DNA of 64,000 nt from Mesobacillus jeotgali (GTDB taxonomy: Bacteria; Bacillota; Bacilli; Bacillales; Cytobacillaceae), in assembly GCF_900166585.1 (NCBI RefSeq), contig NZ_FVZC01000009.1:1499444-1563443 (forward strand). Direction: 5' to 3'. Under the pieces are notes generated by a model. The model was not told where the DNA came from. It did not search any database and saw only the letters and a list, made by a program, of their open reading frames with translations. Positions 38,198 to 50,145 of this stretch are shown here, piece after piece; position 1 is the stretch's first letter, and the number at the start of each line of letters is the position of its first letter. A program made the translations under genes and the position numbers.

Positions 38198-38440
38198 AAA
38201 AATAAAAAAACCCTCGCCTCTGAAAAGAGACGAGAGTTCATTCCCGCGGTACCACTCTAATTGTTCCTAAAAAAGAACCTGCTTACATTGATAACGGAAT
38301 CCATCCGGCCAAAACCCTACTTCTCTTTCAGGAAGGCATCTCAAAAGTGCGCTTCATTATCCACGTTGCACCAGGCTTCCACCGTCCCTGGCTCGCTTAT
38401 GCAAAAATTGAATAACTACTCTCTTTATCATCGATTAGAT
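38198..38440 (-). promoter_or_regulatory. T-box riboswitch of argS
   Basis: The reverse strand contains the canonical T-box sequence AGAGTGGTACCGCGG (38244-38258), followed by a terminator stem CTCTCGTCTC / GAGGCGAGGG (38211-38236) and seven Ts, then the argS ribosome-binding site. The upstream 180 nt hold the stem I region. A CGC arginine codon around 38350 is a candidate specifier, which I cannot confirm without folding. Uncharged tRNA should stabilise the antiterminator and allow argS transcription. Confidence 0.93.
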
Positions 38441-44999: not shown

Positions 45000-46121
45000 C
45001 TATCCCCTGACAGGCGATATCAGATGGAAGTGTCGTTCATTGCTGTTCGGCTTTATTATGACCGGTTTCATAGAACCTGAGAAACTCATGGTAATTTCTT
45101 CTCCCGAAATCGATTTAAGAGCCTCAATCAGAAAATTACTATTTAAGGTAACCAATACCTCAGGACACCCTGTCAGATTGATGATTTTAAGGGTTTCCTC
45201 TGTGTTTCCTAAATTAGAAGAATAGGAAGCAACCCTAAGTTCCCCCCTTATTGTCAATTCGAGTTTTACATTGCTATGTCTTTCTTCACGAGTAAATAAG
45301 CTGGCACGGTCAATTGCTTCCAGTAACTGTCTGGTAAAGACGGTGATGGTTGTTTTCGATTCAGATGGAATGATATTGGAGAGATTAGGATAATTTCCTT
45401 CAATCAATCTTGTGTACAAGGATACATATTCTGATTCAAAAACTAGATAATTATCAGACACATGGATGGAGACAGTTTCCGATTCCTTGAATAATCTTAC
45501 AATTTCTCTTATCGAGAAAAGAGGAATGATGAAGGAACCAGAAATAGAAGTCTCCATTTTAATTTCGCTCATAGCCAATCTGTGAGAATTTGTTGCTGTG
45601 CACTGGATTTTGTTATCCAGGAACGATATCAAAACCCCATTTAGAACCTGGCGAGTATCTTTTATAGAAGCCGCAAATGCGGTCTTTCTGACAATCTCCC
45701 GCAAGTGGATAGCCGGAATCTGTAGACTATTACTATTTTTCATTTCGGGCAATTGAGGAAATTGCTCATTATTGAAGCCACTCAGTTGAATCCTGAGTTC
45801 TTCAGTCATTAAAACAAGTTGTTTATTATTTGAGCTCGTTTGAACGGTAATTTCCCCTGGTATTTTTTTTATCATTTCCGCCAGATATCTTGCAGGTGCT
45901 ACAAAACTGCCGTGTTCAATCATGATAAGGTTTCCGGCAGGACCAATTTTTAACTCCTCTTTGAGAAACAGGTCATGATTGCAGACAATCAGCGTTAATC
46001 CTTCAGAATGGGCTAAAATTTTTATACTGCTCAAAATTTGCTGAACAGGCTTAGTCAAAACAACCCTTGATAAATTAGATAGCGCCTCATAAAAATAAGT
46101 ACTATTTATAATGAATTTCAT
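45000..46121 (-). CDS. DNA polymerase III beta-clamp paralog (DnaN-like)
   Basis: 373 aa, the full three-domain clamp length. It begins MKFIINSTYFYEALSNLSRV and ends HFHLISPVRG, like DnaN's start and its LxLxPVR-type end, and VLNGVLISFLDNKIQCTATN with HRLAMSE matches the second domain. It is clearly divergent, and housekeeping dnaN sits between dnaA and recF at the origin, which is not here, so this is a second clamp. It could serve a repair polymerase or a special replication situation. GAAAGGAAGGATTC precedes the ATG. Monocistronic. Confidence 0.88.
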   Translation of the reverse strand: MKFIINSTYFYEALSNLSRVVLTKPVQQILSSIKILAHSEGLTLIVCNHDLFLKEELKIGPAGNLIMIEHGSFVAPARYLAEMIKKIPGEITVQTSSNNKQLVLMTEELRIQLSGFNNEQFPQLPEMKNSNSLQIPAIHLREIVRKTAFAASIKDTRQVLNGVLISFLDNKIQCTATNSHRLAMSEIKMETSISGSFIIPLFSIREIVRLFKESETVSIHVSDNYLVFESEYVSLYTRLIEGNYPNLSNIIPSESKTTITVFTRQLLEAIDRASLFTREERHSNVKLELTIRGELRVASYSSNLGNTEETLKIINLTGCPEVLVTLNSNFLIEALKSISGEEITMSFSGSMKPVIIKPNSNERHFHLISPVRG

Positions 46122-46219: not shown

Positions 46220-46834
46220 TCATTGTTCATTTTGTTTCATATTTTTAATTATTACCTGAATAACATGGCCTGTACCCGTGTGCAATTCCCCTTCAACTCT
46301 TTCCTGTTCTCCATAAAAGAAATGCAAATTCTTGTGGCCTTTAATCCACTCAAGAACATCAGATGGGTCGTAAAGCATTTCTACCGTTTTGGGTCCTCCT
46401 GTGCCATAATGAACCTGGTCTTCTGAATATACTTCGAGTAAAATGATGCCTCCTGGCTTCACAGTAGAAACGAGTTTTCCAAAGATATTCTTCTGATCAT
46501 TTTTACGAAAATGACCGAAAACCATAATCGCTGCATCGAATTCCTCAACCGGTACCGAGTCATGTATTAAATCTTTAAGTACTGTGCTGACTTTTACATC
46601 ATAACGCTCAGCCAGGGCCTCCGTTTTGTTCAGGCCATTTTCTGCATAGTCATAAGCCGTCACTTCATGCCCCTGCCTTGCAAGGTAAACTGCATTCCGT
46701 CCTTCTCCTTCAGCAAAGGCTGCGATTTTACTTCCCTTTTCCAATCTGTATGACTGTTCTTTTACAAACTGATTTGGCTCTTCACCATACACATAATGTT
46801 CCGAGCCAAAACGGGCATGCCATGAATTATCCAT
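46220..46834 (-). CDS. SAM-dependent methyltransferase (TehB-like)
   Basis: 204 aa: start WHARFGSEHYVYGEEPNQFV, motif I KIAAFAEGEGRNAVYLARQG (about 34-54), FDAAIMVFGHF and TVKPGGIILLEVYSED. This short-chain-detoxification-like group is common in Bacilli. It reads divergently from the thioredoxin-like selenoprotein gene, 112 bp away; TehB-type enzymes methylate tellurite or selenite in some bacteria, so a selenium link is conceivable but unproven. GGAAGGAGTGGTTCG precedes the ATG. Confidence 0.85.
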   Translation of the reverse strand: MDNSWHARFGSEHYVYGEEPNQFVKEQSYRLEKGSKIAAFAEGEGRNAVYLARQGHEVTAYDYAENGLNKTEALAERYDVKVSTVLKDLIHDSVPVEEFDAAIMVFGHFRKNDQKNIFGKLVSTVKPGGIILLEVYSEDQVHYGTGGPKTVEMLYDPSDVLEWIKGHKNLHFFYGEQERVEGELHTGTGHVIQVIIKNMKQNEQ

Positions 46835-46946
46835 CGAACCACTCCTTCCTAATCATTATACCCATTACCCTTTTTTTAGTATGATTAAAGAACATCAGGC
46901 TATTCTATTTTTAAATGGAGACCAAGAAAAAGGAGTGGATTTTTTA

Positions 46947-47276
46947 ATGAGAGAATTAACATCAATGGAAGAAGTAAAGAGTTTAATCAGTGATAAAGAA
47001 TTAAGCTTTATTTATGTTTTGACTGACAATTGAAGCGTATGCCATGGACTGCTTCCTCAGGTTGAGGAAGTCATGAAGGATTTCCCAAAAATCGCGACAG
47101 GCCTGGTCAATGCCGGCAAGATCGAAGAAATAGCAGGATTCCTTATGGCCTTTACTGTACCCGTTCTTGTCTTGTATGCAGATGGCCGGGAATATTTAAG
47201 AGAGGCAAGAATCGTACAGGTTGAAAAACTCAGGGACGATCTCTCCAGAATATATGAAGGTTTCTTTGGCGAATAA
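46947..47276 (+). CDS. Thioredoxin-like protein with in-frame UGA (probable selenocysteine, UxxC)
   Basis: 109 aa when the TGA at 47031-47033 (codon 29) is read as Sec. AAAGGAG lies upstream of the ATG, the frame is open before and after the TGA, and the site reads D-N-U-S-V-C-H-G: a CxxC redox motif with Sec at the first, nucleophilic position and Cys32 second. The rest is thioredoxin-like: strand LSFIYVLTD, helix LLPQVEEVMKDFP, FTVPVLVLYADGREYLREAR with the cis-Pro. Bacillus homologs I recall have CSVCH here. A perfect 8-bp hairpin follows the UGA, and selB is 1 kb downstream. Probably a reductase or peroxide-handling protein in the cytosol. Confidence 0.93.
47052..47070 (+). promoter_or_regulatory. 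Candidate SECIS hairpin of the thioredoxin-like gene
   Basis: CTTCCTCA and TGAGGAAG form a perfect 8-bp stem with a GGT loop. The stem begins 18 nt and the loop 26 nt after the UGA. G-G-U in the apical loop and this distance agree with the element SelB binds in bacterial selenoprotein mRNAs. Confidence 0.85.
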
Positions 47277-47632
47277 ATAAGGTGCTAGGGGTTATCAGGT
47301 ACAATATGCTGTTGTATTTCTTTGACCTATTCTCCCTTAAATAAACATTGCGGCCTATATTTAGACTTCGGACAAAATTTTATTTGGCTCCATGCTTTTG
47401 TTGGTGGAACAATGCTTTCACTTCAGACAAAACCTTGGCTTGGCTCTGGTATTTTGTCCGAACCTGACTTAACTTCGTTTAAAGTCCGTTTTTGGACTGT
47501 TATCTCGTCCGAATCCGAGTGCTGAATGGTCCTTTCCTCTCCTGTCCAATCATTCACAAAAATATATGTATCATTTTTCTCATTTAAGCAAAAATAACTG
47601 TGTTGACTATTTCCTTTTCCAAGGAGAAAAAT
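47277..47632. other. Intergenic region with TTCGGACAAAA inverted repeats
   Basis: TTCGGACAAAAT (47367-47378) and its complement ATTTTGTCCGAA (47451-47462) bracket 72 bases. Further GTCCG and CGTCCGAA copies occur at about 47475-47520. I recall this TTTTGTCCGAA word as a dispersed intergenic repeat in Bacillus-type genomes. No ORF is supported. The promoter and ribosome-binding site of the DUF3231 gene lie at the right end. Confidence 0.6.
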
Positions 47633-48169
47633 ATGAATATGAACACAATAAGGAGTGCGATTATGGGAATTTTAAGCGGAAATCCTAAAGATGAGCCTAT
47701 GCATTATGGTGAGGTATTTGGGGCGTGGACTCATTTATCTGTGAATCATGGCCTAATTGCAGGATACCAGACATTTATCAATCATATTGGTGATGAGGAT
47801 CTTAAAAAGCTGGTTCAAGAAGCGATTGACACGATGCAGGAGGAAAATAAGCAGGTTGAGGAATTGCTTAAAACAAATGGTATCGGGCTTCCTCCATCAC
47901 CACCTGAACGTCCAGTTGCCCATCTTGAAGATATTCCTCCAGGAGCAAGGTTCAGTGACCCTGAAATTTCGGCAGCAGTTTCAAAGGATGTTGCAGAAGG
48001 TCTAGTAGCAGCAAGCACTATGATTGGACAGTCAATCAGGGAGGATATCGCATTGATGTATGGCCAGTTCCATATGGCAAAAGCTCAATTTGGAGCAAAA
48101 ATGCTGAAGTTAAATAAAACAAAAGGCTGGCTTATCCCTCCTCCACTGCAGGTAAAATCTACAGAGTAA
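47633..48169 (+). CDS. DUF3231 protein (CotF-like helical protein)
   Basis: 178 aa from the ATG at 47633, fixed by AAGGAGAAAAAT. All-helical ferritin-like pattern: YGEVFGAWTHLSVNHGLIAG, LVQEAIDTMQEENKQVEELL and DVAEGLVAASTMIGQSIRED. The family is common in spore-formers and related to CotF-type coat proteins; function unknown. It lies between the thioredoxin-like selenoprotein and selB genes but has no UGA and no visible link to selenium. Confidence 0.82.
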   Translation: MNMNTIRSAIMGILSGNPKDEPMHYGEVFGAWTHLSVNHGLIAGYQTFINHIGDEDLKKLVQEAIDTMQEENKQVEELLKTNGIGLPPSPPERPVAHLEDIPPGARFSDPEISAAVSKDVAEGLVAASTMIGQSIREDIALMYGQFHMAKAQFGAKMLKLNKTKGWLIPPPLQVKSTE

Positions 48170-48261: not shown

Positions 48262-50145
48262 TTACTTTCTCCATACCCTCTTGTTTTCGATTCTCCTCGT
48301 ATATCCAAGTGCATCAAGACGCTCGAGAAAAGGAATCATGTATTTTCGGGATAACTCGACTGTTTCCTTTGCCTGAGCCACCTCAAATTCATCTCCTGTA
48401 TGTTCTCTCAGCTTGTTGACTGCTTCAGTAAAATGGGTGCCATGCCATGCATACTGATCATCAAGCATCACTATTTCACCCTGTTCCTCAAGGAAACGTT
48501 TCAATTCAAAGGCAATGGAGTCAGGTATTCCTGCATGAGTAATATATTCGTTTAAATAAGCAACCTTCAAGCCATCTTTCTTTAACTCGCTTAGCATACC
48601 CTCTGTACGTTTTTCCCAGTTCTTTGGAACATGTGGAGCAAAGCTTGCCAGTGATATAAATTGATCTTTTCTAGCATATAATCCCTTGATAACTCCATTT
48701 TCAGTTATGAAATCTAACAGGGTCTTAGAAAAAGATTTTTGCAAGGTTTGGTATAGTTCGGCCTTATTCATGCCAGGACGCATCGGATTATCCTGGTGAA
48801 AATCATTTAATCGATCCATGATATCTTCTTCAATTATCTCAATATCCGCTTTAAGGGCATATTCCTTATTTGATATTTTGACAAATTGGTCGTCTTTCAG
48901 GTTGGACAAAATCGAAGCTTCATCAAGAGCGGTCCGCTTTATGAGTTCCTCAATCGTCAGGCTTTTTGCTTCGTATAATGCAGCATTAATCCTATCAATT
49001 GGTGTGCCTGCCTTCTTCTTTTCCAGTTCTTCGATTGTCTGCTGCCCAAATCGATACTTGTTTCCTCGAGGGTCAATTACCCAACCGCCACCTATTGTCT
49101 CTTGCGGACTTGGCCTCCGGATGATGAAGCGGTCTCCTCGCTTGGTGACGATTTTTTCTTCCAGCCGGAGCTGGCATAGGATTTCTCCGTTTTCTTCCTT
49201 AAGTTCATTCCGGTCGAAAAAGACTATCCTTCCCATTACTTCAGCAGTGCCAATATGGCACTTAATTGGGGTCCTTTGTTTTACCAGATGTTCAAGGTCC
49301 TCTACTACTCTGATTGCAACATCAATTGTACTGGTGACGATAAAATGCTCAGAAGAAACCAAAACTTCGCCGCGCTCTAAATCGTCTTTTGAAACACCCG
49401 AAAGATTAAGCGCAGCTCTCTGTCCAGCGAATGCTTTTTTTGCCGGCTGATGATGGACCTGCAGCTGTCTGGCACGTACTTCCAGACCTGAAGGCAGGAC
49501 TATCAATTGTTGTCCCTCTTCAACCGTCCCTTCGTAAACAGTACCCCTGACAACGGTCCCTTGTCCTTTAACCGTGAAGACCTGGTCGATGGGCAGACGG
49601 AAGGCACCTTTTACATCCCGCATTTCCTGATCCTTAAGCGTTCCGATGATCAGTTCCTTCAGTTCAGGAATTCCTTTTTTAGACAGGCTATCGACCATCA
49701 TAAAAGGAGCGTTTTCAAAGACTGTACCTTCAAGCTCGCCTAAGATGTCGTCTTTCACCAGCTCAATAAATTCTTCTTCCACTCTATCTACCTTGGTAAT
49801 CGCGATAATGCCAGAACGTATCCCTAGGAATCCAAGAATGTCCAGATGCTCCCGGGTTTGCGGCATGACACCTTCATCTGCTGCCACAACAAGAACGACG
49901 AGATCAATACCAGCAACACCCGCAATCATTTGGCGAATGAAGCGTTCATGTCCTGGGACATCCACAACCGAAATTTGTAATTCTTCATCTTCATAAAGTG
50001 GGGCAAAGCCAAGTTCTATGGAAATTTGCCGTTCTTTCTCTTCTTTGAGGCGGTCAGTATCCACATTCGTCAACGCCTTAGTCAACGACGTTTTACCGTG
50101 GTCTATATGACCTGCCATGCCAATGGTAAAATACCTCTTGCTCAA
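48262..50145 (-). CDS. selB: Selenocysteine-specific elongation factor SelB
   Basis: 627 aa, full length. An EF-Tu-like GTPase part has [14 protein letters not shown] near residues 12-25, [12 protein letters not shown] near 61 and [10 protein letters not shown] near 116; domains II and III follow, then four winged-helix modules in the C-terminal half that bind SECIS RNA. The stretch [19 protein letters not shown] is diagnostic for SelB rather than EF-Tu or IF2. SelB brings Sec-tRNA to UGA codons marked by a SECIS. Two UGA-containing genes in this window are its likely clients. selA, selD and the Sec tRNA are not here. Confidence 0.96.

Follow-up and report, generated by a model that had tools for sequence, protein, structure and literature searches.

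A thioredoxin-like gene of Mesobacillus with an in-frame UGA that is very likely read as selenocysteine

Introduction

Thioredoxins carrying selenocysteine (Sec, U) in a UxxC motif (Trx, PF00085) are tabulated as experimentally verified selenoproteins (PMC9312934, PMC13188914), and Sec thioredoxins have been described from Geobacter, Treponema denticola and others (PMC1794560). Table 1 of PMC13188914 contains, next to the Trx UxxC form, the thioredoxin-like selenoproteins SaoT and HUIPC, which also have a UxxC motif, and the main text of that paper has no occurrence of the word Bacillus. Here we describe a gene from a stretch of 64,000 nucleotides (nt) of Mesobacillus jeotgali (the window, by which we mean the whole stretch analysed). 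Its product, 109 residues long, is predicted to adopt a thioredoxin fold. We hold with high confidence that the UGA at codon 29 of the gene is decoded as Sec under the direction of a conserved hairpin 18 nt downstream. The coordinates of all features are collected in Table 1.

Among the matches listed in a search of the open-licence literature, no title or abstract named this protein or a Mesobacillus selenoprotein. The subfamily, whose active-site motif reads USVC, is not named in a 119-entry catalogue of 2026 and appears to be new.

Results

An open frame around a single TGA

Direct reading of the window bore out the first-pass annotation, which had described one uninterrupted frame with a strong ribosome-binding site, a single TGA at codon 29 and a perfect 8-bp hairpin with a GGU loop behind it. 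The frame runs from the ATG at 46947 to the TAA at 47274-47276. Its score against PF00085 is 21.0 bits, slightly below the cut-off of 23.5, and its predicted structure is a thioredoxin fold (predicted local distance difference test, pLDDT, 93) in which the redox motif precedes helix 2, which places it in the thioredoxin superfamily. It is not a canonical TrxA, since it reaches 21.7 bits with TIGR01068 against a curated cut-off of 96.8. The genome carries a separate Cys thioredoxin (C9:2298572, 133.4 bits with TIGR01068), and a second, weak match (C8:692586) is another thioredoxin-like frame with the motif CGTC. A sigma-70 scan of 46700-47700 returned one promoter-like site, at 47603, and none upstream of the gene, with 2.5 expected.

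As had been noted before, gene calling reports only a C-terminal piece: the database protein P0012, of 67 residues, is 100% identical to this part and covers 61% of the query. Other database entries are likewise shortened to 67-75 residues. The 67-residue protein, which lacks the active site, is most likely an annotation artefact.

The residue at codon 29 in relatives

If codon 29 specifies Sec, homologs should have Cys at this place, as the first-pass annotation had expected, and this is what we found in 43 of 47 full-length database relatives. The other four have Trp, the outcome expected from reading TGA as Trp. These four entries (P0002, P0003, P0005 and P0011) are consistent with gene callers that read TGA in this way.

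At the level of DNA, 16 loci were found on named genome contigs. TGA is present in 14 of them (in records titled Mesobacillus, Bacillus, Cytobacillus and, in one case, Chryseobacterium) and TGC in the other two (Pseudalkalibacillus and Exiguobacterium); Mesobacillus itself is placed in the Bacillaceae. The window's family was covered by 193 genomes. A match at E up to 0.001 was obtained in 76 of them, and the 57 strong relatives (E up to 1e-20) divide into 50 with TGA and seven with Cys. An order sample of 397 genomes gave 171 matches at E up to 1e-10. Outside the window's family, the matches listed include at least four TGA forms in three other families, each with the TGA at the same codon position (genomes G564 in family f2, G224 in f33, and G540 and G501 in f36), and 17 Cys loci were read among the matches listed in this order-level search. 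Matches weaker than E 1e-7 were excluded from every count; the named loci L014-L027, which are largely of the same species as the family genome set, were not counted, and L028 and L029 went into the Cys count.

Cys32, the second residue of the motif, is kept in every TGA relative that was read, apart from one. This is L109:3977-4300 (G501), where the Sec codon and the hairpin are kept and the motif is U-S-V-G, the second active-site Cys having been replaced by Gly.

The shortened database entries can also be taken at face value, with the TGA as a real stop and either a decaying thioredoxin-like pseudogene or the 67-75-residue C-terminal piece as the outcome. Public gene callers do list such pieces (e.g., P0012, P0016, P0023 and P0036), and TGA serves as a normal stop in this organism. 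However, the frame is retained on both sides of the TGA in the 50 family relatives. Over the 27 codons that precede the TGA, dS was computable for 8 of 19 pairs, and in these the ratio of nonsynonymous to synonymous substitution rates (dN/dS) ranges from 0.03 to 0.32. Furthermore, codon 29 is TGA, never TAA or TAG, in 54 of 54 TGA genes, and the C-terminal piece has no redox motif and begins at a Met that is Leu in many relatives. We consider a real stop very improbable.

A hairpin that accompanies the TGA

The hairpin behind the TGA resembles a selenocysteine insertion sequence (SECIS). It consists of a 5′ arm (47052-47059), a GGT loop (47060-47062) and a 3′ arm (47063-47070) joined by eight perfect pairs, to which a ninth pair, G-U, can be added, and its loop lies 26 nt behind the TGA. 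Published limits for bacterial SECIS (bSECIS) elements are a loop of 3-9 nt with G in its first two positions, a stem of 4-16 bp, a distance of 16-37 nt from UGA to loop, and a minimum free energy of at most -7.5 kcal/mol (PMC13188914, legend of Fig. 2). The window gene lies within every one of these limits. When its own codons were recoded synonymously, 113 of 5000 recodings reached equal folding. Both strands of the window contain 2610 TGA triplets, only five of which are followed by an equally strong hairpin with G in loop positions 1-2, and two of these five are the codon-29 hairpin itself.

TGA relatives retain the structure, as the first-pass annotation would have it, and Cys relatives do not. 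The GGT loop is present in all 50 family TGA genes, at least seven of the eight pairs being retained in 47 of them, whereas nine Cys genes retain between 0 and 5 pairs. When the four TGA genes from other families are included, the loop is GGT in 54/54, always at the same distance from the TGA, and standard pairs occupy 458 of 486 pair cells. Folded alone, the hairpin passes the bSECIS limits in 43 of 54 TGA genes and in none of 26 Cys genes; in a 36-nt fragment, -7.5 kcal/mol is reached by 50/54 and 2/26, respectively. In addition, wherever the next codon after the TGA specifies Ser, which is the case in 48 family genes, it is always AGC or AGT.

Several observations weigh against a SECIS-directed Sec codon. 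The 60-nt stretch has no unusual folding energy (z -0.91), and 33 of 200 dinucleotide shuffles fold equally well. Matches at the Rfam gathering score in the window are confined to a T-box leader elsewhere (126.4 bits; Table 1), with none on the gene region, and a loose Rfam search of the region gave seven matches, all at chance level. The main strength of the case is the comparative evidence. Covariation is zero: none of the nine stem pairs shows a change on both sides in the 54 TGA genes, and with no compensatory changes the structure rests on sequence conservation. The peptide encoded under the hairpin, LLPQVEE, is frequent in Cys relatives too. The hairpin folded alone falls short of -7.5 kcal/mol in 11 of 54 TGA genes, and the 36-nt fragment does so in four; in that fragment, two of the 26 Cys genes reach this value. 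One of these two, L060 (G006), has a differently shaped hairpin behind its Cys codon (-13.9 kcal/mol, equalled by 1 of 400 recodings), which is either a relic of a Sec form or due to chance. Two TGA genes, L048 (G070) and L054 (G096), are ended early by a TAA near the C-terminus, which reflects either real truncation or draft-sequence error. Finally, related TGA genes are not independent of each other.

The shared peptide and the lack of covariation in the stem would also fit a hairpin that is a by-product of LLPQVEE and no SECIS at all, in which case Sec could still be inserted through an unusual signal. This explanation can be examined at synonymous positions, and these are frozen in the TGA genes: among 49 distinct ones, the hairpin uses CAG in 49, GAG in 49 and CCT in 47, whereas Cys homologs encode the identical peptide with different codons and do not pass the SECIS model. 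Over codons +7 to +12, synonymous diversity is 0.22 of expectation, as compared to 0.87 in 38 other conserved-residue codons, and these six codons are the least synonymously variable among 97 six-codon runs. In 35 of the 49 genes, fewer than 5% of 400 recodings fold as well. The by-product explanation is, in our view, scarcely credible, and a hairpin maintained for Sec decoding is the preferred one.

Ancestry and co-occurrence with the Sec machinery

In trees built with the Sec column masked, the TGA forms lie on one side of a single branch (50 versus 52 rows; Shimodaira-Hasegawa-like approximate likelihood ratio test, SH-aLRT, 92). When other families are included, the branch has support of 89/95 (27 versus 36 rows) and is found in 90% of bootstrap trees. 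This support is moderate because the protein is short.

The first-pass annotation had named a genome lacking selA, selD and the Sec tRNA as a finding that would speak against Sec, but all of these are present. selA (560.3 bits) and selD (399.2 bits) are each over their cut-offs, and the tRNA-Sec scores 56.1 bits (gathering 47) and is called by ARAGORN as tRNA-SeC with anticodon tca, so that together with selB the genome has a complete Sec kit. selD has a UGA of its own, in a U-G-C-K motif, and in two formate dehydrogenase-type frames a UGA precedes a His codon: C9:1601721 scores 781.2 bits, over the cut-off, and C8:149452, a partial match, scores 195.8 bits, under it. Both have GGTCT between complementary arms. 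It is thus likely that the kit has at least three other UGA clients. Their loci carry the labels L002, L123 and L128 (selD with UGCK, and the two formate dehydrogenase-type genes with U-H).

Across genomes, selA follows the TGA. In the family, it is found with 50 of 50 TGA genes but with only four of seven Cys genes (Fisher p 0.0012), and selB is over its cut-off in 49/50 versus 3/7, the exception among the TGA genomes being G078, which is 66% complete. In the order sample, selA is over the cut-off in 4/4 TGA genomes and in 13 of 31 high-scoring Cys genomes. Combined, this gives 54/54 TGA genomes as against 17 of the 38 Cys genomes tested, with selA missing in the other 21 (p 1e-10, kinship ignored). 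Since selA is over the cut-off in 172 of the 193 family genomes, and hence common, the informative part is that its absence is found among Cys genomes only.

This pattern also bears on whether the TGA might be read through as Trp or Cys by some other route that involves no selenium, an idea that finds some backing in the four database relatives with Trp. Trp would, however, destroy the conserved CxxC site, and no change from Cys to a TGG-encoded Trp was seen among the relatives that were read; the Trp entries would fit a gene caller using another genetic code. Selenium-free read-through likewise leaves aside that selA accompanies every TGA gene and that the SECIS-like hairpin occurs with TGA only. 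We regard it as extremely improbable, and Sec as the far better reading of codon 29.

The first-pass annotation had also pointed to selB about 1 kb away. The gene is there and is identified by TIGR00475, and it lies within 4.5 kb of the TGA gene in all 19 genus genomes with a listed selB position. It is found in none of the compared loci from other genera, and selB linkage as a general sign was rejected, because it is confined to the genus among the loci compared.

A divergent methyltransferase and other neighbors

A more widely shared neighbor than selB, unmentioned in the first-pass annotation, is the divergently oriented methyltransferase gene. Homologs with 60% identity or more are found in 41 of the 193 family genomes, all 41 of which have the TGA gene. 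In 40 of these (the exception is G099) the distance to the protein match is 96-183 bases, and the two genes stand head to head in 40 of the 50 family TGA genomes. In the window the gap is 112 bases and contains conserved blocks such as TATACCC, which could be shared promoter elements. The nearest solved structure to the methyltransferase is Slr1183 (2kw5, 114.8 bits).

However, proteins of 58-65% identity exist in the Bacillus cereus group, Paenibacillus and Brevibacillus, and the methyltransferase was found near none of nine Cys loci and none of four out-of-family TGA loci, in a search in which the positive controls were found and several loci had little flanking sequence. Both points weaken the case for a Sec-specific partner; the link is lineage-bound, and a functional tie is only suggestive. 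One may nevertheless ask whether the two genes form a module in these Bacillaceae, in which a substrate reduced by the selenoenzyme is then methylated; candidates would be oxidized selenium, tellurium, arsenic or sulfur species, or a disulfide. We consider such a module unlikely, its probability being slightly lowered by the absence of the methyltransferase near out-of-family TGA genes, with controls confirming. If it were true, a methylation step would depend on selenium supply.

Beyond the methyltransferase lies a gene for a DnaN-like sliding clamp (263 bits with TIGR00663), which is retained at the same place in many genus relatives with an identity of just 46-63%.

Table 1. Positions of the features discussed in the text (window coordinates)
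Feature	Position	Strand	Basis
Thioredoxin-like gene, 109 codons + TAA, one in-frame TGA	46947..47276	+	direct reading, PF00085 score, predicted fold
Ribosome-binding site AAGGAG	46930..46935	+	read directly; ATG 11 nt further
TGA codon 29, predicted Sec, first residue of U-S-V-C motif	47031..47033	+	Cys/TGA in relatives
TGC codon 32, Cys, predicted resolving residue of UxxC	47040..47042	+	direct reading, relatives
SECIS-like hairpin CTTCCTCA-GGT-TGAGGAAG, 8 pairs, loop GGT	47052..47070	+	conservation, bSECIS limits
selB, Sec-specific elongation factor	48262..50145	-	TIGR00475 363.9 bits (cut-off 242.25); SelB winged-helix domains
Class I S-adenosylmethionine-dependent methyltransferase, 204 residues, divergent	46220..46834	-	Pfam Methyltransf_25, TehB; NCBIfam MduS 54.9 bits (cut-off 380)
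DnaN-like sliding clamp gene	45000..46121	-	TIGR00663
T-box leader	38223..38440	-	Rfam

Discussion

Our comparison supports the earlier proposal of a thioredoxin-like selenoprotein with a UxxC active site. As judged from sequence, the gene is real, conserved and so far misread, and its product is very likely a selenoprotein. Within the genome, the open frame around one TGA, the hairpin and its place, and the complete Sec kit argue for Sec decoding; across genomes, so do the Cys in relatives that lack the hairpin and the conservation of TGA and hairpin across species and families.

Both Sec insertion and redox activity are predictions, and the mechanism of decoding is one that is ordinary for bacteria. 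SelB loaded with Sec-tRNA(UCA) would bind the GGU-loop hairpin and deliver Sec at codon 29, and Sec29 and Cys32 would then form the redox pair of a reductase. The selenolate may attack a disulfide or another oxidized substrate, with Cys32 resolving the intermediate and a thioredoxin-reductase-type donor recycling the enzyme. In selenium shortage, translation would halt after codon 28, leaving the cell without active enzyme.

The finding would add a selenoprotein subfamily, which we encountered in 50 of the 193 family genomes and in at least four genomes of three further families; its listed database entries are shortened or carry Trp. Together, the Sec and Cys forms make a natural set for comparison, with the hairpin appearing and vanishing along with the codon. 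In spore-forming, soil-type Bacillaceae, the protein would join SelD and formate dehydrogenase as a client of the Sec machinery, and the methyltransferase offers a link that can be tested.

How does the protein compare to known systems? One connection is to MduS, a double selenoprotein with a methyltransferase domain (NF045649): the neighboring methyltransferase matches this domain, but its score is far below the cut-off and its 204-codon frame has no internal TGA. SaoT (NF040730) and the HUIPC-motif protein (NF047660) are alike in being thioredoxin-like with UxxC, and their models gave no match at E up to 5, in a search whose filters drop most matches above about 0.1. A further relative is 4euy, an uncharacterized protein of solved structure with a 53-bit sequence match and Cys at the place of codon 29; it is found by the sequence search, though it is not among the matches listed (best 50) of either structure search.

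The Cys-type CSVC thioredoxin family proteins of Bacillales, one of which (P0089) is named YdfQ-like, are also related. They belong to the same family, the listed full-length Cys relatives being 37-54% identical, but carry Cys in place of Sec and have no SECIS-like hairpin. The classical thioredoxin motif is WC-GPC. With the Sec-containing Trx, the protein described here would share the small thioredoxin fold, Sec in the first position of UxxC, the existence of Cys homologs and a bacterial SECIS downstream, whereas its motif, USVC followed by His, sets it apart by description from the known Sec thioredoxins.
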